Shown in pieces: positions 2,738 to 14,508 of a stretch of DNA of 64,000 nucleotides. The stretch comes from Denitratisoma sp. (GTDB lineage Bacteria; Pseudomonadota; Gammaproteobacteria; Burkholderiales; Rhodocyclaceae): contig JAVSMO010000001.1 in assembly GCA_032027165.1 (NCBI GenBank), positions 1,862,458 to 1,926,457 of the forward strand. The letters are read 5' to 3'. The first letter of the stretch is position 1; each line of letters begins with the position of its first letter. The notes beneath the pieces were generated by a model. It was given only the letters and a program-made list of their open reading frames with translations, was not told where the DNA came from and searched no databases. Made by a program: the position numbers and the translations under genes.

Positions 2738-3754
2738 TCAGGCGCGGCGCGTCCCCTCGGCCGCCGCCAGCGCCTCCTGCGCATCGCCGGCCGCCAGGTC
2801 GGCGCCGACCCAGCGCCACGCATCGTGCAGGCTGTCGCTCGCCAGCCCGCCCAGCATCACGCGGATGCCGGCGCCGTCGGGCAGCTTCCGGAGGGCCTCG
2901 ACCGCCGCGCGCGCCGCAGGCAACTGCGTCGTCATGGAAACCGACAGGCCGACCAGCTCCGGCCCGAGGGCTTGCACCATGCCGGGCAGCGACGCGGTCG
3001 GCACGTCGGCGCCGAGGTTGAAGGCGGTCCAGCCCTCGATCTCGAAGGCATCGGCGAGCGTGCGCATGCCGAGCGCGTGGCGGTTGCCCTCGACGCAGGC
3101 GAACAGCGCACTGCGCCGGCGACGCGGTTTCCGCGGAGCATGGGTGAAAGCGTCATCCACCGCGCGGTGGGCGGTTTCGGTGGCCAGATGCTCCTGCGCC
3201 ACGCTGATGCGCCCTGCCTGCCACCACCAGCCGATGCGCCGCATCGCCGGCCGCACGATGCGCGCCACCGCCTCCGGCAGCGAGGCCTCGCGCGATGCCG
3301 TCAGCAGCAGCTCCCGCGCGCGCGCGCCGTCTCCGGCCAGCAGCGTTTCGGCGAGCGTCTCCGCCGCCGGATCGAGTCCGGCCGGCTCCAGCGCGTAGTC
3401 GGGCACGTCCTCCTCGCCAGCGAGGACATGAAGGCCCGCCGCGATCAGATCGAGGACGGCCTGGCGGTTGTCTTCCGGCAGGGCTTGCCGGAAGAATGCA
3501 ACGAGCAGTCGCAGCGAGCGCGCCAGCTCCTCCGCCGGCAGCCGGCGCGCCATGAGCAGGCGGCGCTGCCATTGCACGTACTGGCGGAAGGCCCGTGCGC
3601 TGCCGAGCGCCGATGCGGCCGACAGCTGCGCGACATGCATCAGGGCATCGCCGCGCCAGCGCGCACGGACCTCCGCCGCCGGATCGCCGGCCTCGGCCGC
3701 CAGCGCGGCGACGACATGATCGGCCGCTGCGGCGGCCCATTGCCGAAGCGTCAT
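2738..3754 (-). CDS. Cobalamin-binding sensor protein, CarH-like without DNA-binding domain
   Basis: This 338-residue protein has a helical N-terminal half and then a B12 cap plus a B12-binding Rossmann domain. The cap carries an exact W-x9-EH motif (Trp178, Glu188, His189 in WQAGRISVAQEH). That motif is typical of the adenosylcobalamin photoreceptors CarH/LitR, where it packs on the upper face of the cofactor. His226 in EGNRHALG is in the position of the lower axial ligand (HxxG). Unlike CarH, no MerR helix-turn-helix is visible at the N-terminus, so output is probably by protein contact. The gene lies 82 bases downstream of a single receiver domain on the same strand, which suggests a light- or B12-responsive two-protein switch. 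The ATG at 3754 is the only sensible start. The role is inferred; the cofactor site is seen. Confidence 0.8.
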   Translation of the reverse strand: MTLRQWAAAAADHVVAALAAEAGDPAAEVRARWRGDALMHVAQLSAASALGSARAFRQYVQWQRRLLMARRLPAEELARSLRLLVAFFRQALPEDNRQAVLDLIAAGLHVLAGEEDVPDYALEPAGLDPAAETLAETLLAGDGARARELLLTASREASLPEAVARIVRPAMRRIGWWWQAGRISVAQEHLATETAHRAVDDAFTHAPRKPRRRRSALFACVEGNRHALGMRTLADAFEIEGWTAFNLGADVPTASLPGMVQALGPELVGLSVSMTTQLPAARAAVEALRKLPDGAGIRVMLGGLASDSLHDAWRWVGADLAAGDAQEALAAAEGTRRA

Positions 3755-3836
3755 CGCGGCGTTCCCGATGCAGGCATGCGTCCGCCGCTCCGCGGCGGCC
3801 GACCGTTTATCCGGAAGGCAGACAAATCCGACGGAC

Positions 3837-4193
3837 TCAGTGCAGGGCGCCGGCCAGCAGCTCCGGCAGCGCCTCGGCCAGCCGCGGCTTCTCGAGGCAG
3901 ACATCCGCGTTGCGGCGCCGCAGCGCGCGGGCCGCCTCGCCTTCGTCGTCGAGCGTGAGGCAGACCAGCGTCGCCTCGGGCAGCAGCTGCCTGAGCAAGG
4001 GAATCACCGACCTGCCGTCGCGGGTCCGCAGTTCATGGTCGGCCAGCACGATGTCCGGCCGCATGGCGCGGGCGGCGCGGATGCCCGCCTCCGCACTGAC
4101 GGCGGTGGACACGCGGCAGTCGCCGGCGTCCTCGGCGCAATGCCGGGCCGCTTCCAGGAAGGGGCGCGCCGCGTCGATGATCAGCAGTCTCAT
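3837..4193 (-). CDS. Single-domain response regulator (receiver only)
   Basis: The 118 residues form one CheY-like receiver. The phosphoacceptor is Asp52 in DIVLADHEL, and the conserved Lys is in CLEKPRL. The acidic pair near the N-terminus is reduced to one residue (Asp7 in IIDAA), which may weaken Mg binding. There is no output domain, so it should act by protein contact or as a phosphate shuttle. It is the first gene of a pair with the cobalamin-binding sensor and is divergent from the receiver-kinase at 4358. Two 19-bp palindrome-like sites lie in the shared upstream region. Confidence 0.8.
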   Translation of the reverse strand: MRLLIIDAARPFLEAARHCAEDAGDCRVSTAVSAEAGIRAARAMRPDIVLADHELRTRDGRSVIPLLRQLLPEATLVCLTLDDEGEAARALRRRNADVCLEKPRLAEALPELLAGALH

Positions 4194-4202
4194 ATTCTCG
4201 GG

Positions 4203-4221
4203 CTCCGGGAGAATCCTGATG
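4203..4221. promoter_or_regulatory. Degenerate palindromic operator-like site A
   Basis: CTCCGGGAGAATCCTGATG matches 14 of 19 positions of the reverse complement of site B (4273-4291). It lies 10 bases upstream of the receiver gene starting at 4193 and exactly 70 bases from site B, about seven helical turns. See the finding on shared operators. Confidence 0.35.
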
Positions 4222-4272
4222 GCATTCTGCCCATGGGCGGGCGGAGCCTGAATAGGTGTATTCCTGAAACGT

Positions 4273-4291
4273 CATCAGGAAATTCCCGATG
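4273..4291. promoter_or_regulatory. Palindromic operator-like site B
   Basis: CATCAGGAAATTCCCGATG has 9-base arms around one central base with a single mismatch. It lies between divergent genes (4193 minus, 4358 plus). The same palindrome occurs in perfect form at 8070-8088, before another signalling operon. Its use as an operator is inferred. Confidence 0.5.
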
Positions 4292-4357
4292 GCCGCGCCG
4301 CCTGCGCGTGGAAATATTGGCGTATCATTTTTCGGTCACGACTCCCAGATCCGTGTC

Positions 4358-5479
4358 ATGACCGATCCTGAAACGAGCCCGGCGGCGGCCAAGCCGCTGC
4401 GGGCCATCATCGTCGAGGACACCCCCGACGATGTCGCACTGCTGCTGCGGTCACTGCGGCGCGCCGGCTATGCGCCGGACTATGCCCGCGTGCAGACGGC
4501 CGAGGAGCTCGACGGGGCGCTGCGGGCGGGCAGTTGGGACATCGTCCTTTCGGACTACACCCTGCCCGATTTCTCCGGCCTGATGGCCCTGCACCAGGTT
4601 GCCGCCTTCGATCCCGACCTGCCCTTCATCATCGTCTCCGGCAACATCGGCGAGGACGTCGCCGTCGCGGCCATGAAGGCCGGCGCCCACGACTACCTGA
4701 TCAAGGGCAACCTGACGCGCCTCGGCGCCGCCATCGAGCGCGAGCTGCGCGAAGCCGGCATGCGCCGCGCCCGGCGGCGCGACGAACTGGCGCTGCAGCA
4801 CGCCCGGCTGCGCCTGCAGGCGCTCTCCAACCGCATGCTGGAGATGCAGGAAGCCGAGCGGCGCCACATCGCCCGCGAGCTGCACGACGAGATCGGCCAG
4901 TCTCTCACCGCCATCAAGCTCAACCTGGAGGCGCTCGCGCGCCGCATCGACGACGAAAAGGCGCGCGGGCTCACGGCGGAAATCGCCGGCGTCGCCGGCC
5001 AGGTGCTCGACCAGGTGCGCCGGCTCTCGCTCGACCTGCGCCCGCCGCAGCTCGACGACCTCGGCCTGCGCGCCGCCCTGCAATGGCTGGTCAAGCGGCA
5101 CACGCGCGAGGACGGGCCGGCGATCGAGCTGACGGCGCCGGAGAGCCTGCCGCGCATCGGCAGCGCGGCCGAGACGGCCTGTTTCCGCGTCGCCCAGGAG
5201 GCGCTCACCAACATTCTGCGTCACGCCGAAGCGACCTCGGTGCACATCGAGCTGAAGGAGGATGGCGGCCAGTTTTGCCTCGACGTGCGCGACGACGGCC
5301 GCGGCTTCGACCTCGCCGCCGCCCGCGCTCGCGCGCTGGAGGGCGCCAGCCTCGGCCTGGTCGGCATGAACGAGCGCGTCGCGCTGGCCGGCGGCGAGAT
5401 CCGCCTCGCCAGCCGCAGCGGCGGCGGCACCCACGTGCGCGCCTGCTTTCCGCTGCCGGCCGGAGCGGCGCGCCCATGA
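4358..5479 (+). CDS. Receiver-histidine kinase fusion, NarX/DesK-type (HisKA_3)
   Basis: This soluble 373-residue protein starts with a receiver domain (about 16-130; Asp66 in LSDYTLPDFSG). A HisKA_3 dimerisation segment follows with His176 in RHIARELHDEIGQSL, then a HATPase_c domain (DDGRGF, LGLVGMNER). No membrane segment is seen, so the input is presumably phosphorylation of the N-terminal receiver by another kinase. The downstream gene overlaps its stop by four bases (ATGA) and encodes a LuxR-type response regulator, its obvious partner. I chose the ATG at 4358 rather than one at 4289 because the latter falls inside a palindromic operator-like site and the receiver fold begins after 4358. 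The N-terminal receiver closely resembles that of the GGDEF-EAL protein at 8539 (VSGNIGEDVAV in both). Confidence 0.9.
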   Translation: MTDPETSPAAAKPLRAIIVEDTPDDVALLLRSLRRAGYAPDYARVQTAEELDGALRAGSWDIVLSDYTLPDFSGLMALHQVAAFDPDLPFIIVSGNIGEDVAVAAMKAGAHDYLIKGNLTRLGAAIERELREAGMRRARRRDELALQHARLRLQALSNRMLEMQEAERRHIARELHDEIGQSLTAIKLNLEALARRIDDEKARGLTAEIAGVAGQVLDQVRRLSLDLRPPQLDDLGLRAALQWLVKRHTREDGPAIELTAPESLPRIGSAAETACFRVAQEALTNILRHAEATSVHIELKEDGGQFCLDVRDDGRGFDLAAARARALEGASLGLVGMNERVALAGGEIRLASRSGGGTHVRACFPLPAGAARP

Positions 5480-6117
5480 AGCCCCTGCGCCTGCTGCTCG
5501 CCGACGACCACACGCTGGTGCGCGCCGGCCTGCGCGCCCTGCTCGACGGCATGGACGGCGTCACGGTGGTCGCGGAGGCGGACAACGGCGAAGAGGCCGT
5601 CGCCCTCGCGCAGGCGCACGCGCCCGACGTGGTGCTGCTCGACATCACCATGCCCGGCCTCAACGGCCTGCAGGCGGCCGAGCGCATCCTGGCGCAGTCG
5701 CCGCCGCCCCGTGTCGTCATCCTCTCCATGCATGCCGCCGAGGAATACGTGAACCGCGCGCTCTCCCTTGGCGTGGCCGGCTACCTGCTGAAGGATGCCG
5801 CCACGCTCGAGCTGCAGGCGGCACTGGAGGCAGTGTCCGCCGGCCAGACCTATCTCTCCCCGCGCATCACCAGCCAGCTGCTCGAATCGCGCCAGAAGGC
5901 CGGCGAGGCGCCGAAGCCGGCGCTGACCGCGCGCCAACTCGAGGTGCTGCGCCTGCTGGCACTCGGCAAGAGCGTCAAGGAAATCGCCTACGACCTGCAG
6001 CTCTCGGCGAAGACGGTGGAGACCTACCGCGCCCAGATCATGGAGCGGCTCGACCTGCACGACCTCGCCAGCCTGGTGCGCTACGCCATCCGCAACGGGC
6101 TGGTCAGCGCCGACTAG
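5476..6117 (+). CDS. NarL/FixJ-family response regulator with LuxR HTH
   Basis: The protein has 213 residues. Its receiver domain carries the acidic pair in LADDHTLV, Asp56 in VVLLDITMPG and Lys in YLLKDA. A LuxR-type helix-turn-helix follows (about 147-210; LTARQLEVLRLLALGKS, then KTVETYRAQIMERL). It is translationally coupled to the receiver-kinase at 4358 by an ATGA overlap and should be that kinase's DNA-binding output. It is the only DNA-binding protein in the 559-14508 island, which makes it the first candidate to bind the palindromes at 4203-4291 and 8070-8110. That last link is inference. Confidence 0.93.
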   Translation: MKPLRLLLADDHTLVRAGLRALLDGMDGVTVVAEADNGEEAVALAQAHAPDVVLLDITMPGLNGLQAAERILAQSPPPRVVILSMHAAEEYVNRALSLGVAGYLLKDAATLELQAALEAVSAGQTYLSPRITSQLLESRQKAGEAPKPALTARQLEVLRLLALGKSVKEIAYDLQLSAKTVETYRAQIMERLDLHDLASLVRYAIRNGLVSAD

Positions 6118-6126
6118 GGTGCGGCA

Positions 6127-6151
6127 AAAGTCAGTTTCGGCGGGGCGGCGC
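6127..6151 (+). repeat. Dispersed repeat copy, intergenic
   Basis: This copy matches the 25-base consensus (AAAGTCAGTCCCGGCGGGAC then GGCGC) at 22 of 25 positions. It lies 10 bases after the stop of the LuxR regulator, in the 138-base gap before the next kinase. The core here reads AAAGTCAGTTTC. Confidence 0.8.
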
Positions 6152-6255
6152 CCGCGGACGGCATGATTGACCGCGCCACGCCGACGGAGTAGCTTGATCC
6201 GCGGTCCGTCTCGTGGCGGCGCGGCCCGAAGCGGGCAATTCACGGAGGTGCATCC

Positions 6256-8061
6256 ATGACGCACGCCCTGATCGTCGACGACAGGCCGGAGAACCGCTAC
6301 CTGCTGCGGGCGGTGCTGAAGGGCCATGGCTTCGAAACCGCCGAGGCGGAGAACGGCGCCGCGGCGCTGGCACTGGCGCAGCAGCGGACGCCGGACGTCA
6401 TCATCAGCGACCTGCTGATGCCGGAGATGGACGGCTACGCCCTGCTGCGTGCATGGAAGGCCGACGCCGATCTCGCCCGCATCCCCTTCATCGTCTACAC
6501 CGCCACCTACACCGACGCCAAGGACGAGCAACTGGCGCTCGACCTCGGTGCCGACGCCTTCATCCTCAAGCCGACCGAACCGAGCGTCTTTATGCGGCGC
6601 CTGCAAGAAGTGCTCGCGCAGGCGCGGACCGGCACCCTGCCGCCGGGCCGGCCTGCGCCAGACGAGGCGGACAGTCTGAAGCTCTACAATGAGGTGCTGG
6701 TCGGCAAGCTCGAGGAGAAGAGCGTCCAGCTCGAACAGCGCGTCGCCGAGCTGGCCGCCTCGGAGACGCTCATCATCCGGCTGTCCCGGCTGTATGCCGC
6801 CCTCAGCGAGACCAACCAGGCGATCGTCCATCTCGCCGACCGGCAGGCGCTGTTCGAGGCCGTCTGCCGCATCGCCGTCACGCGCGGCGGCCTCGACCTG
6901 GCCTGGATCGGGCTGCTCGATGCGCGCAGCGGCGAGATCGTCCCCGCTGCCCGGTACGGCGATTGCGAGCGGCTGTTCGCCAGCCTGCGACCCTTCGGCA
7001 TCCGCGGCCCGCGCCGCGCCCCGGCGGAGTATGCCGTCGGCGAGGACCGCGTCCATCTCTGCAACGATCTGGAAGCGGCGCCCGAGCACGCCGCGATTCG
7101 CGGGGTCCTGCGCGAAGCGGGGCTGCGCGCCGCCGCCGCCGTGCCGCTGCGCCTCGACGGGCACGCCGTCGGCTCCCTGACCCTGTATTCGAGCGAAAGG
7201 AATTTCTTCGACGACCGGCTGATGGCCCTGGTCACGGAAATGGCCGCCGATCTCTCGTTCGCTCTGCATAACTACGAACGGGAGGCGCTGCGCCGCGAGG
7301 CCGAGGCGGAACTGCAGCGCGCCAATGCCGAGCTGGAGCAGCGCGTGGAAGCGCGCACGGCGGAACTGGCCGCGGCCAACCGCGAGCTGGAGGCCTTCGC
7401 CTATTCGGCCTCGCACGACCTGCGCGCGCCGCTGCGCAGCATCGAAGGCTTCGCCCGCATCCTGCTCGAGGACCACGCCGCCAGGCTGGACGAGGAGGGG
7501 CGCGAACACCTGGACCGCATCTGCCATGCGGCGCGCGGCATGAACGCGCTGATCGACGACCTGCTGGCCCTGTCGATGGCCGGCCGCCAGGAACTGCTGC
7601 CCGCCGAGGTCGACGTGAGCGCGCTCGCCGCGGACATCCTGGGCGAGTTGTTGCGCGTCGCGCCGGGGCACGCGGTAAGCACCCGGGTCGCCGCCGGTTG
7701 CACGGCGATGGGCGACCCGCGGCTGCTGCGCGTGCTGCTGCAGAACCTGCTGGGAAACGCCGTGAAATACACCGGCCGGCAGGCGGCCGCCCACATCGAG
7801 TTCGGCTGCACGGAAACCGGCGGAGACCGGGTCTTCCATGTCCGCGACGACGGCGCCGGCTTCGACCCGCAGCACGCGAAGCGCCTGTTCGAGCCCTTCC
7901 AGCGCTTTCACCGCGCGGAAGACTTCGAGGGCACCGGCATCGGCCTGGCCACGGCCGCCCGCATCGTCGCCCGCCACGGCGGCCGCATCTGGGCCGAAGC
8001 CGCGCCCGGCAAGGGCGCCGCCTTCTTCTTCACCTTGCCCCCGCCCGCGGCAGGGATTTGA
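6256..8061 (+). CDS. Receiver-GAF-histidine kinase
   Basis: The 601-residue soluble protein has an N-terminal receiver (1-120; Asp52 in VIISDLLMPEMDG, Lys in ILKPTEP). A coil, a GAF domain (about 190-340), a second coil and a HisKA domain with His387 in SASHDLRAPLRSI follow, and a HATPase domain (DDGAGFDP, GTGIGLA) ends the protein. With the receiver in front, it is a phosphorelay node that other kinases could control. The GAF domain would add a small-molecule or cofactor input. A good ribosome binding site (GGAGGTG) precedes the ATG. No regulator is fused or directly attached, but a lone receiver starts 103 bases downstream and is a possible target. Confidence 0.9.
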   Translation: MTHALIVDDRPENRYLLRAVLKGHGFETAEAENGAAALALAQQRTPDVIISDLLMPEMDGYALLRAWKADADLARIPFIVYTATYTDAKDEQLALDLGADAFILKPTEPSVFMRRLQEVLAQARTGTLPPGRPAPDEADSLKLYNEVLVGKLEEKSVQLEQRVAELAASETLIIRLSRLYAALSETNQAIVHLADRQALFEAVCRIAVTRGGLDLAWIGLLDARSGEIVPAARYGDCERLFASLRPFGIRGPRRAPAEYAVGEDRVHLCNDLEAAPEHAAIRGVLREAGLRAAAAVPLRLDGHAVGSLTLYSSERNFFDDRLMALVTEMAADLSFALHNYEREALRREAEAELQRANAELEQRVEARTAELAAANRELEAFAYSASHDLRAPLRSIEGFARILLEDHAARLDEEGREHLDRICHAARGMNALIDDLLALSMAGRQELLPAEVDVSALAADILGELLRVAPGHAVSTRVAAGCTAMGDPRLLRVLLQNLLGNAVKYTGRQAAAHIEFGCTETGGDRVFHVRDDGAGFDPQHAKRLFEPFQRFHRAEDFEGTGIGLATAARIVARHGGRIWAEAAPGKGAAFFFTLPPPAAGI

Positions 8062-8069
8062 GCGCACGG

Positions 8070-8088
8070 CATCGGGAATTTCCCGATG
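8070..8088. promoter_or_regulatory. Perfect 19-bp palindrome, operator-like site C
   Basis: CATCGGGAATTTCCCGATG is a perfect inverted repeat that extends to 23 bases at 8068-8090. It lies between the receiver-GAF kinase and the four-gene operon starting at 8165. No T-run follows on either strand, which argues against a terminator. It is the clean version of site B at 4273-4291. Confidence 0.6.
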
Positions 8089-8091
8089 CCA

Positions 8092-8110
8092 TCTCGGGAA
8101 ATCGCCGATT
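8092..8110. promoter_or_regulatory. Degenerate operator-like site D
   Basis: TCTCGGGAAATCGCCGATT matches site C at 13 of 19 positions and starts 22 bases (about two helical turns) after it. A second, weaker site beside a strong one is typical of cooperative binding. Functional meaning is inferred. Confidence 0.3.
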
Positions 8111-8164
8111 CCGGTCGCCCTGCTGCGGGCGGATGATGCCTCCATCCCCAACAGCCGTGTTGCC

Positions 8165-8542
8165 ATGAAAATCCTGGTGATCGATCCGAATCCGCTGTTC
8201 CGTCAGGCCAGCCGCAACTTCATCGCCGCCCTGCCGGAATGCGAGTGTCTTGTCGCCGCCTCGCTGCAGGACGCGCTCGACCAGGATGAAACGCGCCGGT
8301 CGGACATGATCCTGATCGACTATGCGCTCGGCCGGCGCGGCGCCGGCTGCGGAATGCACGCGCTGCGGACGCTGGCCCCCGCCGCGTGCATCGTCCTGCT
8401 GGCCGACGATGCCGCCGCCTACCGCGGCAGCAGCCTGGCGGCGGGCGCCGACGATTGCACCGGCAAGGACGCGCTCGGCAGAGAGCTGCCGCGGCTGCTC
8501 GCCGGCCTCGCCCGCCGCGGCGGGCAGGAGGCGCGGCCGTGA
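8165..8542 (+). CDS. Single-domain response regulator (receiver only)
   Basis: The 125 residues form one receiver fold. The phosphoacceptor is Asp52 in MILIDYALG, and Asp7 is present in VIDPNP, but the usual C-terminal Lys is replaced by a less clear DCTGKDALG segment. It is the first gene of a tightly packed run, and its TGA overlaps the GTG start of the GGDEF-EAL gene by four bases. It may shuttle phosphate between the kinase at 6256 or 11199 and the receivers of the next gene. The palindromic sites C and D lie 55-95 bases before its start. Confidence 0.75.
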   Translation: MKILVIDPNPLFRQASRNFIAALPECECLVAASLQDALDQDETRRSDMILIDYALGRRGAGCGMHALRTLAPAACIVLLADDAAAYRGSSLAAGADDCTGKDALGRELPRLLAGLARRGGQEARP

Positions 8543-11202
8543 ACGAGGCGATCGCGGCCGCACGACGCCCGCTGCGCGTGCTGCTCGTCGAGGACACCGC
8601 CGACGACGCCGTCCTGCTGATGCGCACCCTCGCCAAGGGCGGCTTCGCGCCGGAGCACATCCGCGTCGACACCGCCAAAGCGATGCGCGAGGCGCTCGAC
8701 GCCGGCGCCTGGGACATCGTCATCTCCGATTACTCGCTGCCGGAGTTCAGCGCCTTCCAGGCGCTGGAGATGACCAAGCGGCACGATCCGGACCTGCCCT
8801 TCATCATCGTTTCCGGCAACATCGGCGAGGACGTCGCCGTCGGCGCCATGCGCGCCGGCGCCCAGGACTACCTGCTCAAGCACAACCTGAAGCGGCTGGC
8901 GCCGGCGGTGGCGCGCGAACTGGACGAAGCCGCCAGCCGCCGCAACCGTCTCGCCGCCGAACAGGCCCTGCGCGAGCAGCGCCATCGCCTCGACAGCATC
9001 CTGAACGCCCTCGGCGACATCGTCTGGTCGGTCAGCCTGCCCGACCTGCGTGTCGCGCACCTCAACCCGGCGGCTGAATTCATCCTCGGCCATCCGCTCG
9101 ACAGCCTCAAACGCGGACTCAAGTTCTGGCACAGGAAAGTCATCCACCCCGGCGACCGCGACCGCATGCGCGGCTACCTCAGGAACACCCTGCGCAGCGG
9201 CGCCAACAGCGCCGAATACCGCATCGTGCGCCCCGACGGCACGATACGCTGGCTGTTCGACCGCTCGCGCGTGATCATGGATGAGCAGGGCCGCCCGATG
9301 CGCATCGACGGCGTCGCCAGCGACGTCACCCGGCACAAGGAAAGCCAGGCCCTGCTTTACCGCGCCGCCCACCATGACGCGCTGACCGGCCTGCCCAACC
9401 GCAAGCTGATGCAGGAGCGCCTGCGCCAGGGCCTGGCCCGCCACGACCGCGAGGGCGGCACGCTGGCGCTGATGCTGATCGACATCGACCGCTTCAAGAC
9501 CATCAACGACAGCCTCGGCCACAAGGCCGGCGACAGCATGCTATGCCAGGTCGCCGAGCGCCTCGCCGGCAGCCTGCGCGAGGAGGACACCGTGGCCCGC
9601 CTCGGCGGGGACGAGTTCGTCGTCGTCCTGCCCGACGTCGCCGACGAAGCCGGCGCCGCCGCCGTGGTTCACAAGTTGACTGCCGCGCTGGTCCCGCCTA
9701 TGAAGGTCGACGGGCGCACCATCCATTGCACCGCGAGTTTCGGCATCGCGCTCAGTCCGCGCGACGGCGAGGACGTCGAGTCGCTGCTGAAAAACGCCGA
9801 CACCGCCATGTACGCCGCCAAGCGCGGCGGGCGCAACGCCCATCGCTTCTACGCGGCTGAGATGAACGCCGCCGCGGCCCGGCTGCTCGATCTGGAGAAC
9901 GCCCTGCGCGGCGCGCTCGAGCGCCGCGAGTTCGAGGTGTACTACCAGCCGCAGGTGGACCTCGCCCGCGACGGCGCCGTCTGCGGCTTCGAGGCCCTGC
10001 TGCGCTGGCGCCATCCCGAGCGCGGCCTGATCCCGCCGGCCGAATTCATCCCGCTCGCCGAGGAAACCGGCCTCATCGTGCCCATCGGCGAATGGGTGCT
10101 CGGCGAAGCCTGCCGCCAGGCAAGAACCTGGATCGAGCGCTTCGACCCGGACCTGCGCGTCGCCGTGAACCTCTCCGCCCGCCAGTTCGCCCGGCCCGGC
10201 CTGGCCCAGACCGTCGCCGCCACGCTGGCGGCCTGCGGCCTGACGGCGCGCAACCTCGAGCTGGAACTGACCGAATCGATGATCATGGACGATCCCGACC
10301 AGTCCGGCCGCATCCTGGCCGAGCTCAAGGCGATGGGCATCACGCTGGCGGTCGACGATTTCGGCACCGGCTACTCGAGCCTGGCCTATCTGCGCCGCTT
10401 CCCCATCGATGTGCTGAAGATCGACCAGTCCTTCGTCAGCGACCTCGTTTCCAACCCGGACGACGCCGCCATCTGCGCCTCGATCATCGCCATGGCGCAC
10501 TCGCTGCGCCTGAAGGTCGTCGCCGAGGGCGTCGAAAACGATGGCCAGCTCGGCTTCCTCGCCCAGCGCGGCTGCGACCATGCGCAGGGCTACCTGATCG
10601 GCAGGCCACTTCCGTCCGTCGACGCCACCACCCTGCTCGGCAAGGGCGGCACGTCCATCCGGCACGTGCGCGCCGCCGACGCGGGAATGCGCACCCTGCT
10701 GCTGGTCGACGACGACGCCTACATCCGCGCCGCCCTGCAGCGCCTGTTGCGCCCGGACGGCTACCGCATCCTCGCCGCCCGCGACGCCGCCGAGGCCTTC
10801 GACCTGCTGGCGGCGAACCGCGTCGGCGTGATCGTCGCCGACCAGCGCATGCCCGGCATGAGCGGGGCGGAGTTCCTCGGCCACGTCAAGGAGCTGCATC
10901 CCGACGTCGTGCGCATCATGCTCTCGGGCGGCACCGACCCCCAGTCGGTGATCGAGTCGATCAACGCCGGCGCGGTCTACCGCTACGTCACCAAGCCCTG
11001 GGACGACGAGCAACTGCGCGCCATCGTCCGCGAGGCCTTCGGCCGCGAAGCGCTGCAGCGCGAGAACACCCAGCTCAGCCTCCAGTACCGCAATGCGTGC
11101 GCCCGGCTGGCGGAACTGGAGGCGGCGCTGCAGGGCGATGCGGAACGCCCGTCGCGTCCGCGCGGCAAGACGAAAGTCAGTCTCGCCAGGACGGCGCCAT
11201 GA
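8539..11202 (+). CDS. Receiver-PAS-GGDEF-EAL-receiver protein, c-di-GMP turnover
   Basis: This 887-residue protein controls cyclic di-GMP. It has a receiver (about 13-130; Asp64 in VISDYSLPEF), a PAS domain (about 147-275), a GGDEF domain with an intact RLGGDEF signature (356-360) and an EAL domain with EAL at 485-487, DDFGTGYSSL and KIDQSFV. A second receiver (about 716-835; Asp768 in VIVADQRMPGMSG) ends the chain. An inhibitory RxxD site sits five residues before GGDEF (REED). Both catalytic motifs look active, so net activity could switch with phosphorylation. A receiver at each end is unusual. The start is the GTG at 8539, coupled by a GTGA overlap to the preceding receiver. A dispersed repeat forms its last coding bases. 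Confidence 0.93.
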   Translation: MNEAIAAARRPLRVLLVEDTADDAVLLMRTLAKGGFAPEHIRVDTAKAMREALDAGAWDIVISDYSLPEFSAFQALEMTKRHDPDLPFIIVSGNIGEDVAVGAMRAGAQDYLLKHNLKRLAPAVARELDEAASRRNRLAAEQALREQRHRLDSILNALGDIVWSVSLPDLRVAHLNPAAEFILGHPLDSLKRGLKFWHRKVIHPGDRDRMRGYLRNTLRSGANSAEYRIVRPDGTIRWLFDRSRVIMDEQGRPMRIDGVASDVTRHKESQALLYRAAHHDALTGLPNRKLMQERLRQGLARHDREGGTLALMLIDIDRFKTINDSLGHKAGDSMLCQVAERLAGSLREEDTVARLGGDEFVVVLPDVADEAGAAAVVHKLTAALVPPMKVDGRTIHCTASFGIALSPRDGEDVESLLKNADTAMYAAKRGGRNAHRFYAAEMNAAAARLLDLENALRGALERREFEVYYQPQVDLARDGAVCGFEALLRWRHPERGLIPPAEFIPLAEETGLIVPIGEWVLGEACRQARTWIERFDPDLRVAVNLSARQFARPGLAQTVAATLAACGLTARNLELELTESMIMDDPDQSGRILAELKAMGITLAVDDFGTGYSSLAYLRRFPIDVLKIDQSFVSDLVSNPDDAAICASIIAMAHSLRLKVVAEGVENDGQLGFLAQRGCDHAQGYLIGRPLPSVDATTLLGKGGTSIRHVRAADAGMRTLLLVDDDAYIRAALQRLLRPDGYRILAARDAAEAFDLLAANRVGVIVADQRMPGMSGAEFLGHVKELHPDVVRIMLSGGTDPQSVIESINAGAVYRYVTKPWDDEQLRAIVREAFGREALQRENTQLSLQYRNACARLAELEAALQGDAERPSRPRGKTKVSLARTAP
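11173..11197 (+). repeat. Dispersed repeat copy at a coupled stop/start
   Basis: This copy matches the 25-base consensus at 22 of 25 positions (core AAAGTCAGTCTC). It encodes the C-terminal KVSLARTA of the GGDEF-EAL protein and ends one base before the ATGA overlap that starts the next kinase. Confidence 0.8.
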
Positions 11203-13661
11203 ACCGGCAGGCAAGAACGGCCAGGCGCGAGAGCGGACCGCCCGTCCGGACCGCCGATATGGTTGTTGAGAGCGCGCAGGGCGTGTTCCGCCAGGACGCC
11301 CGGGGCGTTTTCGTCCAGGTCGATGCGCGCGCCGCCGGCATGCTCGGCTACAGCGCGGACGAACTGACCGGCCTGCACTACAGCGTCCTGCATTTCGAGG
11401 ACGGGCTGACGCGCGCGCAGCACAACTTCGCACAGCGCCTGGCCGGCAGCGCCGGCACCATCGAATACCGCCTGCGCCGCAAGGACGGCACGCCGGTGTG
11501 GGTCGCCGTCTCCTCGGTGCCGCATGTCGACGCGGCCGGCAACTGCATCGGCGTCACCGGCTTCCTGAGCGACATCGACCAGCGCCGGCGGCTGGAGAAC
11601 CTGGCCGGGCAGGAGCGGCGCCTGCTGCGCCTGATCGCCGGCCATTGCCCGCTCAGCGCCGTGATGGAGGACCTTTGCATGACGCTGGCGGACGTCTCGC
11701 GCCATCCGCTGCAGGTCGCCGTGATGCTGGTCGACGGCCAGAACCTGACCTGCCTCGCCGCACCCGGTCTGCCGCCGCGCTATCGCGCCGAGCATGCAAC
11801 CCTGCCCCTGGCGACCAGCGGCATGGCCTGTGCCGAAGCGGTGCGCAGCGGGCGCGTCGTCGTGGCGAACACCGCCGGGCCGGACGCCGCCCCGGAAACC
11901 GCCGCCTTGCGCCGCGACTACGGCGTCGGCGCGGTCTGGGCCTATCCGGTCGTGCAGGGCGGCGAAACCCTCGGCGCCCTGGTCCTGCTGCCGCGGGTGG
12001 CGGGCGAACCGGACGCCGAGGACGAGCGCACCATACGCTTCGCGCTCGAAGTGGCCCGCCTGGCGCTCGCCCACGAGCGCAAGGCCGAGGCCCTGCGACT
12101 GTCGGAACAGCGCTTCCGCGACTACGCGGAACTGTCGGCCGACTGGTACTGGGAGCAAGACGCCGAATTCCGCTTCACTTACATGTCGGGCGGGGTCTGC
12201 AACAAGGGCGGCTTCCGCGTCGCCGACAGCCTGGGAAAAACACGCTGGGAGCTGCCCATCGAGGGCGTCGATGCGGCGCAATGGGCCGCGCACCGCGCCC
12301 TGCTCGAACGCCAGGAGGTCTTCCGCGATTTCACCTACGTCATCCGTGTCCCCGGCGGATCGCCTCGCTGGTTTTCGGTGAGCGGCAAGCCGGTGTTCGG
12401 CGCGGGCGGCCGCTTCCAGGGCTACCGGGGCATCGGCCGCGACGTCACCGAGCGGGTGATCGCGCAGAACATCCTGGAAAGGACGCGGCACTGGCTCGAA
12501 CAGGCCGTGAAGGCGGCCGGTATCGGGCTATGGGAACGCGATGTCGAAAGCTGGGACTTCCAGTTCACCTCCAACTGGAAGGCGCTGTTCGGCTACGCCG
12601 AAGGGGAAATCGGCAACTCCGCCGCGGACTTCGACCGTCTGATCCATCCCGACGACCTGACGCGCGTGCATGCGGCGGCCCGCGCCTATGCGGCCAATCC
12701 GCAGGGCGAATACCAGAACCGCTTCCGCATCCGGCACAAGGACGGCGCGTGGCGCTGGGTGCTCTCGCGCGGCAACCTCCTCGACGATCCGGTGAGCAAG
12801 CGCCGCACCTGGATGGGCTGCCACCTCGACATCACGGAGCAGATCCAGGCCGAGCAGCGGATCTCCGAGCTGGCCGCCACCCTGGAGGCGCGCGTGCGCG
12901 CCCGCACGGCGGCGCTGGAAGAAGCCAACCGCGAGCTCGATGCCTTCAACTTTTCCGTATCGCACGACTTGCGCACGCCGTTGCGCGCCATCGAAGGCTT
13001 CAGCCAGGCCCTGCTCGAGGACTGCCACGGCCGGCTCGACGCGACCGGACACGACCACCTGCGGCGCATCGTCGCCGCGACGGCGCGGATGGGCGAGCTG
13101 ATCGAGGCGCTCTACGACCTGTCAGTGCTATCCCGCGCACCGCTTTACCTGCGCCCGGTGCGCCTCTCCGACATGGCGCGCGAACTGGTCGCCGAGCTGT
13201 GCGAGCGGGAGCCGGGGCGCACGATGGAAGCCGACATCGCAGAAACGCCCGCCGCCGAGGGCGACGCGCGGCTGCTGCGCCTCATGCTGGCCAACCTGCT
13301 CGGCAACGCCTGGAAGTACACGTCCAGGACGGCCCGCGGCCGCATCGCCTTCGGCGCCCGTACGGACGAGCGCGGCCGCTGCATCTACTTCGTGCGCGAC
13401 AACGGCGCCGGCTTCGACATGCGCTTCGCCGACAAGCTGTTCCGCATGTTCCACCGCCTGCATCGCGAGGAGGAGTTCGGCGGACAGGGCGTCGGCCTCA
13501 CCACGGCGCATCGCGTGGTCGCCCGGCACGGCGGCCGCATCTGGGCCGAGGCCGCGCCGGGATCGGGCGCGACATTCTTCTTCACGCTGTGGGATGAGGC
13601 CGACCTGCGCAGCGAAATGCTCCAGCCGGCGGACGACGGCTGGGCGCCACTGGAGGCATGA
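11199..13661 (+). CDS. PAS-GAF-PAS-PAS histidine kinase
   Basis: The 820-residue soluble kinase has a PAS domain (about 25-130), a GAF domain (about 140-290), two more PAS domains (about 300-425 and 430-555) and a coil. HisKA follows with His589 in SVSHDLRTPLRAI, then HATPase with LANLLGNAWKYT, DNGAGFDM and GQGVGLTTA. It has no membrane segment and no receiver of its own. It lies in the run 8165-14508, with its ATG overlapping the GGDEF-EAL stop by four bases. The neighbouring receivers (8165, and both ends of the 8539 product) are its likely phosphate acceptors. The first residues, before the PAS domain, are basic and variable. Confidence 0.92.
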   Translation: MNRQARTARRESGPPVRTADMVVESAQGVFRQDARGVFVQVDARAAGMLGYSADELTGLHYSVLHFEDGLTRAQHNFAQRLAGSAGTIEYRLRRKDGTPVWVAVSSVPHVDAAGNCIGVTGFLSDIDQRRRLENLAGQERRLLRLIAGHCPLSAVMEDLCMTLADVSRHPLQVAVMLVDGQNLTCLAAPGLPPRYRAEHATLPLATSGMACAEAVRSGRVVVANTAGPDAAPETAALRRDYGVGAVWAYPVVQGGETLGALVLLPRVAGEPDAEDERTIRFALEVARLALAHERKAEALRLSEQRFRDYAELSADWYWEQDAEFRFTYMSGGVCNKGGFRVADSLGKTRWELPIEGVDAAQWAAHRALLERQEVFRDFTYVIRVPGGSPRWFSVSGKPVFGAGGRFQGYRGIGRDVTERVIAQNILERTRHWLEQAVKAAGIGLWERDVESWDFQFTSNWKALFGYAEGEIGNSAADFDRLIHPDDLTRVHAAARAYAANPQGEYQNRFRIRHKDGAWRWVLSRGNLLDDPVSKRRTWMGCHLDITEQIQAEQRISELAATLEARVRARTAALEEANRELDAFNFSVSHDLRTPLRAIEGFSQALLEDCHGRLDATGHDHLRRIVAATARMGELIEALYDLSVLSRAPLYLRPVRLSDMARELVAELCEREPGRTMEADIAETPAAEGDARLLRLMLANLLGNAWKYTSRTARGRIAFGARTDERGRCIYFVRDNGAGFDMRFADKLFRMFHRLHREEEFGGQGVGLTTAHRVVARHGGRIWAEAAPGSGATFFFTLWDEADLRSEMLQPADDGWAPLEA

Positions 13662-13662
13662 C

Positions 13663-14508
13663 ATGGACGACCCTGAACGCATCGACTGCGACATCGACCT
13701 GAAATCCTTGATCGCCGACATTCGCCCGACGCGCCTGGACGGCGTGCTGCGCGGGTTGCTCGGCGAGGATTTCCGCCTGTGCGACAACAACGGGGAGACG
13801 TTGCTGGGCGATCGCCGCGCGTCGCGCGGCGTGGACGGCGTCCCGCTGCAATATCGGCTTGATCGCGTCGGCACGCTGTCCGCACCGTCCGCCGCACCGG
13901 AAAACCTGCGTGCCGCCGCCGACTTCCTCGAACTGGTCTTCGAGGCGGGCGAACGCCTTGGCATGGCCGCCGGCCTGCATCTGCAGGCGGCACAGGAGGA
14001 TTACCGGGCGCTGCTCGAACGGCATGCCGCGCTCGCCGGTGCCGAGGCGCACTATCGCGCGCTGGCCGGCGAGCTCGAAGCGCGCGTGCAGGTCCAGGTG
14101 GCGACCATCGAGCGCACCTGGAGCCAGCTCTACCAGGCCGAACGCCAGGCCGCCGGAATCGCGCAGGAACTCGACGCTCCGCTCGATCTCATCCTCTGCA
14201 ATCTCGCCACGGCGCGCAGCTATCTGCGCCACTTCGTCCGGCTCGCCGGCCTGATCGGACAGTCCGATGCCGCCGCGCTGAAAGCGTACTGGCAGGAGCA
14301 CGGGCTGGAGCATGCCCTGCGCGACTTCGCCGAACTCGTCGAAGCGTCGCTCGACAACGCCGAGCGGATGGCGCATGTCGTGACCGGCCTGAAGGACGAC
14401 TCCCAGGCCGATGCCGCCACGGAAACCGACGCGGACCTGAACGAATGCCTGCACCAGCCCCCGGGCGCCGGCAGCGTTGCCTGGCCGGCGCCGTCCCGCC
14501 GGGACTGA
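13663..14508 (+). CDS. Degenerate histidine-kinase-like protein without catalytic domain
   Basis: The start lies one base after the previous stop. The 281 residues hold an N-terminal region I cannot assign, a coil (about 105-165), then a segment that looks like the dimerisation helix of an NtrB/PAS kinase. The usual AHEINNP box has become AQELDAP, with Gln168 in place of the phosphoacceptor His. It is followed by the family-like NLATARSYLRHF pattern. No ATP-binding domain is present, and the frame ends in Pro/Arg-rich residues inside a perfect dispersed repeat. It is either a pseudokinase adaptor that pairs with the upstream kinase or a remnant truncated at the repeat. Codon use looks normal, so it may still be made. 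Confidence 0.7.
   Translation: MDDPERIDCDIDLKSLIADIRPTRLDGVLRGLLGEDFRLCDNNGETLLGDRRASRGVDGVPLQYRLDRVGTLSAPSAAPENLRAAADFLELVFEAGERLGMAAGLHLQAAQEDYRALLERHAALAGAEAHYRALAGELEARVQVQVATIERTWSQLYQAERQAAGIAQELDAPLDLILCNLATARSYLRHFVRLAGLIGQSDAAALKAYWQEHGLEHALRDFAELVEASLDNAERMAHVVTGLKDDSQADAATETDADLNECLHQPPGAGSVAWPAPSRRD

Follow-up and report, generated by a model that had tools for sequence, protein, structure and literature searches.

The window analysed here is a 64,000-nucleotide stretch of Denitratisoma sp. DNA (contig JAVSMO010000001.1, positions 1,862,458 to 1,926,457 of the forward strand), and it carries an island of signalling genes with a 19-bp palindrome. This palindrome and its weaker partners probably form tandem operators at two activator-dependent promoters for the phosphorylated form of the NarL/FixJ-type (LuxR-type) response regulator encoded at 5476-6117, with dimer centres near -43 and -65 in a layout like that of BvgA. 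One promoter would face leftward, towards genes for a single-domain receiver (REC) and a B12-binding protein, and the other rightward, towards an operon for cyclic di-GMP (c-di-GMP) turnover.

Tandem Palindromes and Promoter Geometry

The sequence CATCGGGAATTTCCCGATG occupies 8070-8088 and CATCAGGAAATTCCCGATG, a variant in one arm, occupies 4273-4291; a preliminary description of this DNA had named both, and they proved to be the sole strong copies in the genome. Each belongs to a pair of palindromes (pair B and pair A, in regions B and A, respectively) with a hexamer beyond it:

8070-8088, no strand assigned: distal strong palindrome of pair B, centre 8079, about -65; perfect but for the centre base; in six loci, absent from the incomplete L037
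8092-8110, no strand assigned: proximal weak palindrome of pair B, centre 8101, about -43; abuts the -35 region; 22-bp spacing in 6/6 loci with pair B
8132-8137, plus strand: -10-like hexamer GATGAT of the predicted c-di-GMP operon promoter; fixed offset in 11/11 promoters
4273-4291, no strand assigned: distal strong palindrome of pair A, which reads leftward, centre 4282, about -65
4251-4269, no strand assigned: proximal weak palindrome of pair A, centre 4260, about -43; placed by the conserved spacing, 22 bp from the 4273 site
4224-4229, minus strand: -10-like hexamer CAGAAT of the predicted leftward REC/B12 promoter; offset equal to that of region B; GATAAT or GATACT in relatives
4203-4221, no strand assigned: weak site with 4 mismatches to CATCRGGAAWTTCCYGATG; not conserved, probably chance

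Eleven promoters from six genomes and one Thiobacillus contig were aligned on the strong palindrome. Six are from region B (window, L034, L098, L099, L035 and L036) and five are leftward promoters of region A, which is also found in L034, L098, L099 and L119 and is missing from L035, L036 and L037. All share one plan, that is, the strong palindrome, 3 bp, the weak palindrome (22 bp from centre to centre), 21 bp and the hexamer, so that the proximal centre lies 33.5 bp from the hexamer in every case. The hexamers are GATGAT, CAGGAT, CAGGAT, CAGCAT, GATAGT, GATGAT, CAGAAT, GATAAT, GATAAT, GATACT and GATAAT, every one having A as its second and T as its sixth letter. At the shared offset 44 of 66 letters match TATAAT, the next best offset between 41 and 119 giving 26; in a reduced set of eight promoters the count is 33/48, which none of 5000 single-base shuffles equalled. 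The comparison of orthologous promoters, put forward earlier as a check, thus yielded the paired layout and the hexamer offset in 11/11 promoters. By the usual rule transcription starts about 7 bases past the -10 hexamer, and therefore the dimer centres would fall near -43 and -65. A search of 3800-8600 gave no sigma-70 promoter in which a -35 could be recognised. In region A of L099 both sites are strong.

The conserved geometry gives two predicted promoters, the leftward REC/B12 promoter and the rightward c-di-GMP promoter, and by its conservation the weak 8092 site is judged to be real. Two weak sites, at 8092 and 4203, had been listed before, together with spacings of 22 and 70 bases. The former site and its 22-bp spacing are kept in all loci with pair B, whereas the 70-base spacing is probably not meaningful. 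The 4203 site, present as listed, overlaps the predicted leftward start and is without an equivalent in the region A alignment of three relatives; with its 4 mismatches and lack of conservation it was dropped as an operator. The earlier list lacked 4251-4269, the conserved partner of the 4273 site at 22 bp.

Occurrence in the Window and in Genomes

With up to 3 mismatches allowed, the palindrome occurs at two places only in the window (4 matches over both strands). Chance is a very unlikely origin, because 100 shuffled windows average 0.01 matches and none contains 4. In the whole genome (3,405,959 bases) a limit of 2 mismatches leaves only the 8070 and 4273 sites, a third place (C1:3379069) comes in at 3 mismatches, and the reversed control pattern gives no match at all. 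The idea of a shared operator confined to the island is borne out by this search, which revealed no spread in many copies. A dispersed repeat of the repetitive extragenic palindromic (REP) or uptake-sequence type was ruled out, since it needs many copies and there are two strong ones in 3.4 Mb; an intrinsic terminator (a GC-rich stem followed by a T run) was likewise ruled out, neither palindrome place having one. Pair B begins 8 bases past the stop codon of the preceding gene, a position that would suit a hairpin, a terminator, a REP-like repeat or an accident of sequence; such an origin is nevertheless hardly credible, since neither place has a terminator, pair A sits between divergent genes, the genome holds two strong copies and, strongly against it, spacing and hexamer are conserved at two different promoters.

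Furthermore, all 8 exact matches to TCRGGAAWTTCCYGA in seven genomes lie inside the islands (two in G000, one each in G016, G354 and G019, three in G154, and none in G005 and G002). Six sites with 1 mismatch outside the islands were inspected (L182, L189, L190, L192, L195 and L196), and all lie in or across open frames of at least 150 residues, a length that says little about coding in GC-rich DNA. Over 395 genomes the 15-mer with 1 mismatch is too loose a pattern, 335 of them having a match. At L192:1501-1515 (G016) a core, TCCGGAATTTCCCGA, overlaps what by eye is a possible start of a lipoprotein-like gene; the letters of this core are also present in G354 and G154.

Conservation in Relatives

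The closest orthologues of the 5476 protein are in G354, G154 and G016 (81-83% identity) and in G005 and G019 (75%); L119, on the Thiobacillus contig, holds an 80% orthologue interrupted by the contig end. Overall, regulator orthologues near the layout are 73-83% identical, and all six of these relative loci have palindromes near the regulator gene. The tandem pattern with up to 1 mismatch occurs in six of 395 family genomes (G000, G016, G354, G154, G019 and G151). Full-length regulator matches (75-100% identity) occur in six genomes, namely the five of these other than G151, and G005, where the tandem pattern has 2 mismatches. The hypergeometric probability of this co-occurrence is 4.6e-10, kinship being ignored.

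Pair B stays with the c-di-GMP operon in L036 despite a sigma-54 regulator gene between it and luxR, and a signalling gene is immediately left of pair A in all 5 loci that have the pair. In L034, L098, L099 and L119 the first leftward gene encodes a PilJ/HAMP/PAS kinase; in L034 the third encodes a B12-binding protein. Directly upstream of the kinase gene stand an HNH endonuclease gene in L035 and hemA in L036.

Candidate Binder

A Pfam scan of ten island proteins (a small frame at 28-474 lay outside it) detected a DNA-binding domain only in the 5476 protein, in agreement with the earlier remark that the island encodes a single DNA-binding regulator. This protein has PF00072 and PF00196 above their cut-offs, that is, a receiver followed by a GerE/LuxR helix-turn-helix (HTH). 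The phosphorylation residues of receivers are an acidic pair, an aspartate, a serine or threonine and a lysine; the corresponding D10, D11, D56, S84 and K106 are invariant in 6 aligned sequences. By best inference the 5476 protein is the putative binder of the paired operators. The same suggestion, made before, gains from the presence of a close orthologue in 5/6 family genomes with the tandem operator at up to 1 mismatch.

Profile Searches and Remoter Loci

A profile built from the region A promoters alone scores five region B promoters at 40.9-52.5, and one built from region B alone scores four region A promoters at 46.7-51.9. The two regions are therefore tied to one system. The full profile was made from 9 of the 11 promoters, with both L098 promoters omitted as near-copies of those of L034, and was applied with a cut-off of 11.0 to 20 held-out loci with remoter regulator homologues (47-58% identity) that were unused in training. 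Eight loci exceeded it (L038, L041, L102, L103, L106, L107, L108 and L113), compared with 2/400 shuffled (highest 15.7) and 0/20 reversed versions of the same loci. None of 61 other loci did so, the maximum being 10.97 over 2.04 million positions.

The gene order of region B is repeated in 5 of the 8 loci above the cut-off. The predicted promoters of L041, L103, L106 and L107 are each followed by a frame of 124-158 residues (receiver-like by eye) and then by a GGDEF/EAL match on the same strand, and in L108 a GGDEF/EAL match is downstream of the promoter. In L102 a receiver-like frame of 128 residues follows the promoter, and the GGDEF/EAL match of that locus is located elsewhere. Below the cut-off, and uncounted, are L040 (three copies, 6.2-10.0) and L042 (6.5). 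Single palindromes about 50 bases past luxR in L042, L111 and L112 are not reached by the profile. Three promoter-like stretches in L040, on a G023 contig, are near-identical (3339, 6603 and 10645): each has TATCAGGGTTTCCCYGATTTCCTTGTC, followed at the same offset by CACTAT, and they stand ahead of different frames. L113:5349 belongs to this type too.

Genes of the Island and Predicted Target Operons

The genes of the island are as follows:

2738-3754, minus strand: B12-binding protein, gene 2 of the leftward operon; start uncertain, 3754 or 3904
3837-4193, minus strand: single-domain receiver, gene 1 of the leftward operon (Pfam)
4323-4328, plus strand: TATCAT, by eye a possible -10 for the kinase/LuxR operon; distance to the palindrome not conserved
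4358-5479, plus strand: REC-HisKA_3 histidine kinase, likely the cognate kinase; start 4358 preferred over 4289
5476-6117, plus strand: NarL/FixJ (LuxR)-type response regulator (Response_reg + GerE), the proposed binder
6256-8061, plus strand: REC-GAF-HisKA histidine kinase, between luxR and pair B (Pfam)
8165-8542, plus strand: single-domain receiver, gene 1 of the c-di-GMP operon (Pfam)
8539-11202, plus strand: REC-PAS-GGDEF-EAL-REC protein of the c-di-GMP operon (Pfam; GGDEF and EAL motifs seen by eye in the translation)
11259-13661, plus strand: PAS/GAF histidine kinase, gene 3 of the c-di-GMP operon; start uncertain
13663-14508, plus strand: gene 4 of the c-di-GMP operon, 281 residues; matches an NCBIfam histidine kinase model weakly and in part (24.7 bits, cut-off 450)

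The kinase start at 4289, inside the palindrome, is probably wrong, because the gene caller favours 4358, where the window shares an ATGACSGA start with L099 and L119 (by eye). The 281-residue protein has no Pfam match. Between 2738 and 3904 on the minus strand B12-binding_2 and B12-binding domains were recognised, with no recognised HTH and a weak CarH match (65.9 bits, cut-off 400), and this protein may sense cobalamin or light and be wired to the receivers. In addition, a 981-residue open frame at 5221-8166 on the minus strand runs antisense to the kinase/LuxR genes; it is probably a by-product of the high GC content.

The sites had formerly been placed before three signalling units, as a possible single regulon. 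Such control is supported for the REC/B12 and c-di-GMP promoters and not for the kinase/LuxR operon, which has no palindrome at a fixed distance in the window, L099 or L119. Pair A stands 67-107 bp ahead of the start at 4358, with TATCAT then at 4323, so the chief function of the sites might be to let the kinase/LuxR operon be regulated or repressed by the protein it encodes. This is quite improbable. The rightward -10 distance to the palindrome varies by eye (50 in the window, 54 in L119 and 64 in L099, where the hexamer is TATCCT), the geometry of pair A equals that of pair B when read leftward, and L035, L036 and L037 keep the kinase genes without pair A, the regulator being only partial in L037. 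Because these three loci keep the kinase, pair A is not needed for the kinase/LuxR operon. On the retained kinase and regulator genes and the varying -10 distance, the idea that pair A serves chiefly for self-regulation was rejected.

Weighing the Two-Promoter Reading

Several observations weigh against two promoters controlled by the 5476 protein. The 11 promoters are related, and the reduced set of eight dropped only both L098 promoters and that of L099 region B; the L035 promoter is the weakest. Twelve of the 20 remoter loci do not exceed the profile cut-off, and L041 (11.1), L108 (12.8) and L113 (13.5) all score under the highest shuffle (15.7). The L038 match is probably chance, because the frames after it are not recognised as signalling genes. 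Moreover, remoter relatives of the regulator are encoded in the 61 other loci as well, one of which, L134, is the G002 contig. G151 shows a perfect tandem match, at an unrelated site and with no -10. The analysis also covered seven places with tandem matches of 0-2 mismatches, six of them by a check for the hexamer and for open frames.

G002, of the same genus and 65% complete, keeps the kinase with no palindrome on its 11.3-kb contig, and before its kinase (L037) there is likewise a signalling gene, with a REC-kinase-like match and the same orientation. L035 has GGDEF-EAL-like matches further left, again without pair A. Taken together, G002 and L035 weaken the presence/absence pattern of pair A. 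Conservation in relatives that keep these genes, an expectation set out at the beginning, is accordingly found in six loci but not in the incomplete G002, with its kinase and partial regulator. There the regulator match (L037:10306-11281) stops near residue 103-106 and the frame then ends, 123 residues from the match start; either G002 counts against full conservation or it represents a broken or misassembled locus.

A further difficulty concerns the identity of the binder. Twelve GerE-domain matches exist in the genome, 11 of them outside the island, and another member could bind, the operator layout being unchanged and the protein being another NarL/FixJ-type regulator encoded elsewhere. Across the family, related cores also seem by eye to outnumber matches to the reversed control, and several regulators may read similar sites. 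An outside binder is nonetheless unlikely, since the tandem operators track the 5476 orthologue over 395 genomes and the layout is also near some remoter homologues of 5476.

The G151 match itself (L227:7620-7649) is flanked by two frames on the plus strand, which by eye encode a repeat protein of FhcC/GltB type and a sigma-54 activator, and falls within an open frame of the minus strand.

Proposed Mechanism and Its Meaning

In the preferred explanation, with the 5476 protein acting at both promoters, the regulator would be phosphorylated, the simplest candidate for this step being the REC-HisKA_3 kinase, whose gene directly precedes that of the regulator. A first dimer would occupy the strong distal palindrome (about -65) and aid the binding of a second at the weak one (about -43), which lies two helical turns further downstream, beside a poor -35. 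RNA polymerase would be recruited to the -10, whose distance of 33.5 bp from the proximal centre is fixed. Pair A would then turn on the leftward operon (the single receiver and the B12-binding protein), and pair B the rightward operon (the single receiver, the REC-PAS-GGDEF-EAL-REC protein, the kinase and the 281-residue protein). The outcome would be a small dedicated regulon giving a two-component input into c-di-GMP turnover. The sites, their spacing, the position of the -10, their conservation and their confinement to the island can be read directly from the DNA; we infer the binding, the phosphorylation path, activation rather than repression, cooperativity and the start points.

A broader proposal, possible but rather less likely than not, is that of a conserved wiring module in the Rhodocyclaceae and some relatives, in which a NarL-type regulator, through a rigid two-dimer operator, would co-activate an operon of a single receiver and GGDEF-EAL protein and a divergent sensor operon, the latter including in some genomes a B12-binding (possibly light- or cobalamin-sensing) protein. 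If so, sensor supply and c-di-GMP output would rise together. The analysis offers a precise, testable operator and two candidate target operons for this two-component regulator, and it suggests that transcription of GGDEF-EAL genes is linked directly to a REC-HisKA_3/NarL-type pair, an arrangement that recurs in several genera. The operator sequence was not found in the literature searched for the motif and its 13-mers, where the matches, judged by title and the start of the abstract, were not bacterial operators.

Comparison with Known Systems

The 5476 protein shares the combination of a receiver and a GerE HTH with the NarL/FixJ regulators of solved structure (VraR 5hev, NarL 1a04, DesR and DevR). 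The nearest of these by sequence are VraR (E value 1.4e-36) and NarL (1.1e-32), which match over most or all of its length. The best NCBIfam models are MctR (NF052445; 201 bits) and UvrY/SirA/GacA (173 bits); membership of either was ruled out, the scores being under the curated cut-offs of 300 and 280.

The closest parallel in operator layout is BvgA. The Bordetella promoters Pfha and Pptx carry sites for head-to-head BvgA dimers 22 bp apart on centre, and at Pfha the strong site is farthest upstream, with weaker sites downstream and the last abutting the -35 (PMC7250471). The promoters described here are similar in their inverted half-sites with predicted dimer centres 22 bp apart in 11/11 promoters, and in their strong distal and weaker proximal site abutting the -35, strength being judged from the sequence. 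They differ in having two sites, where the BvgA promoters have three or six, and in the arms CATCRGGAA around a single centre base (CATCRGGAAWTTCCYGATG), where Pfha has the inverted heptad TAAGAAATTTCCTA. In addition, unlike those of BvgA, the predicted targets here are signalling genes, and the likeness concerns operator layout. The comparison suggests that the 22-bp strong/weak arrangement of BvgA may also be used by other NarL-family regulators.

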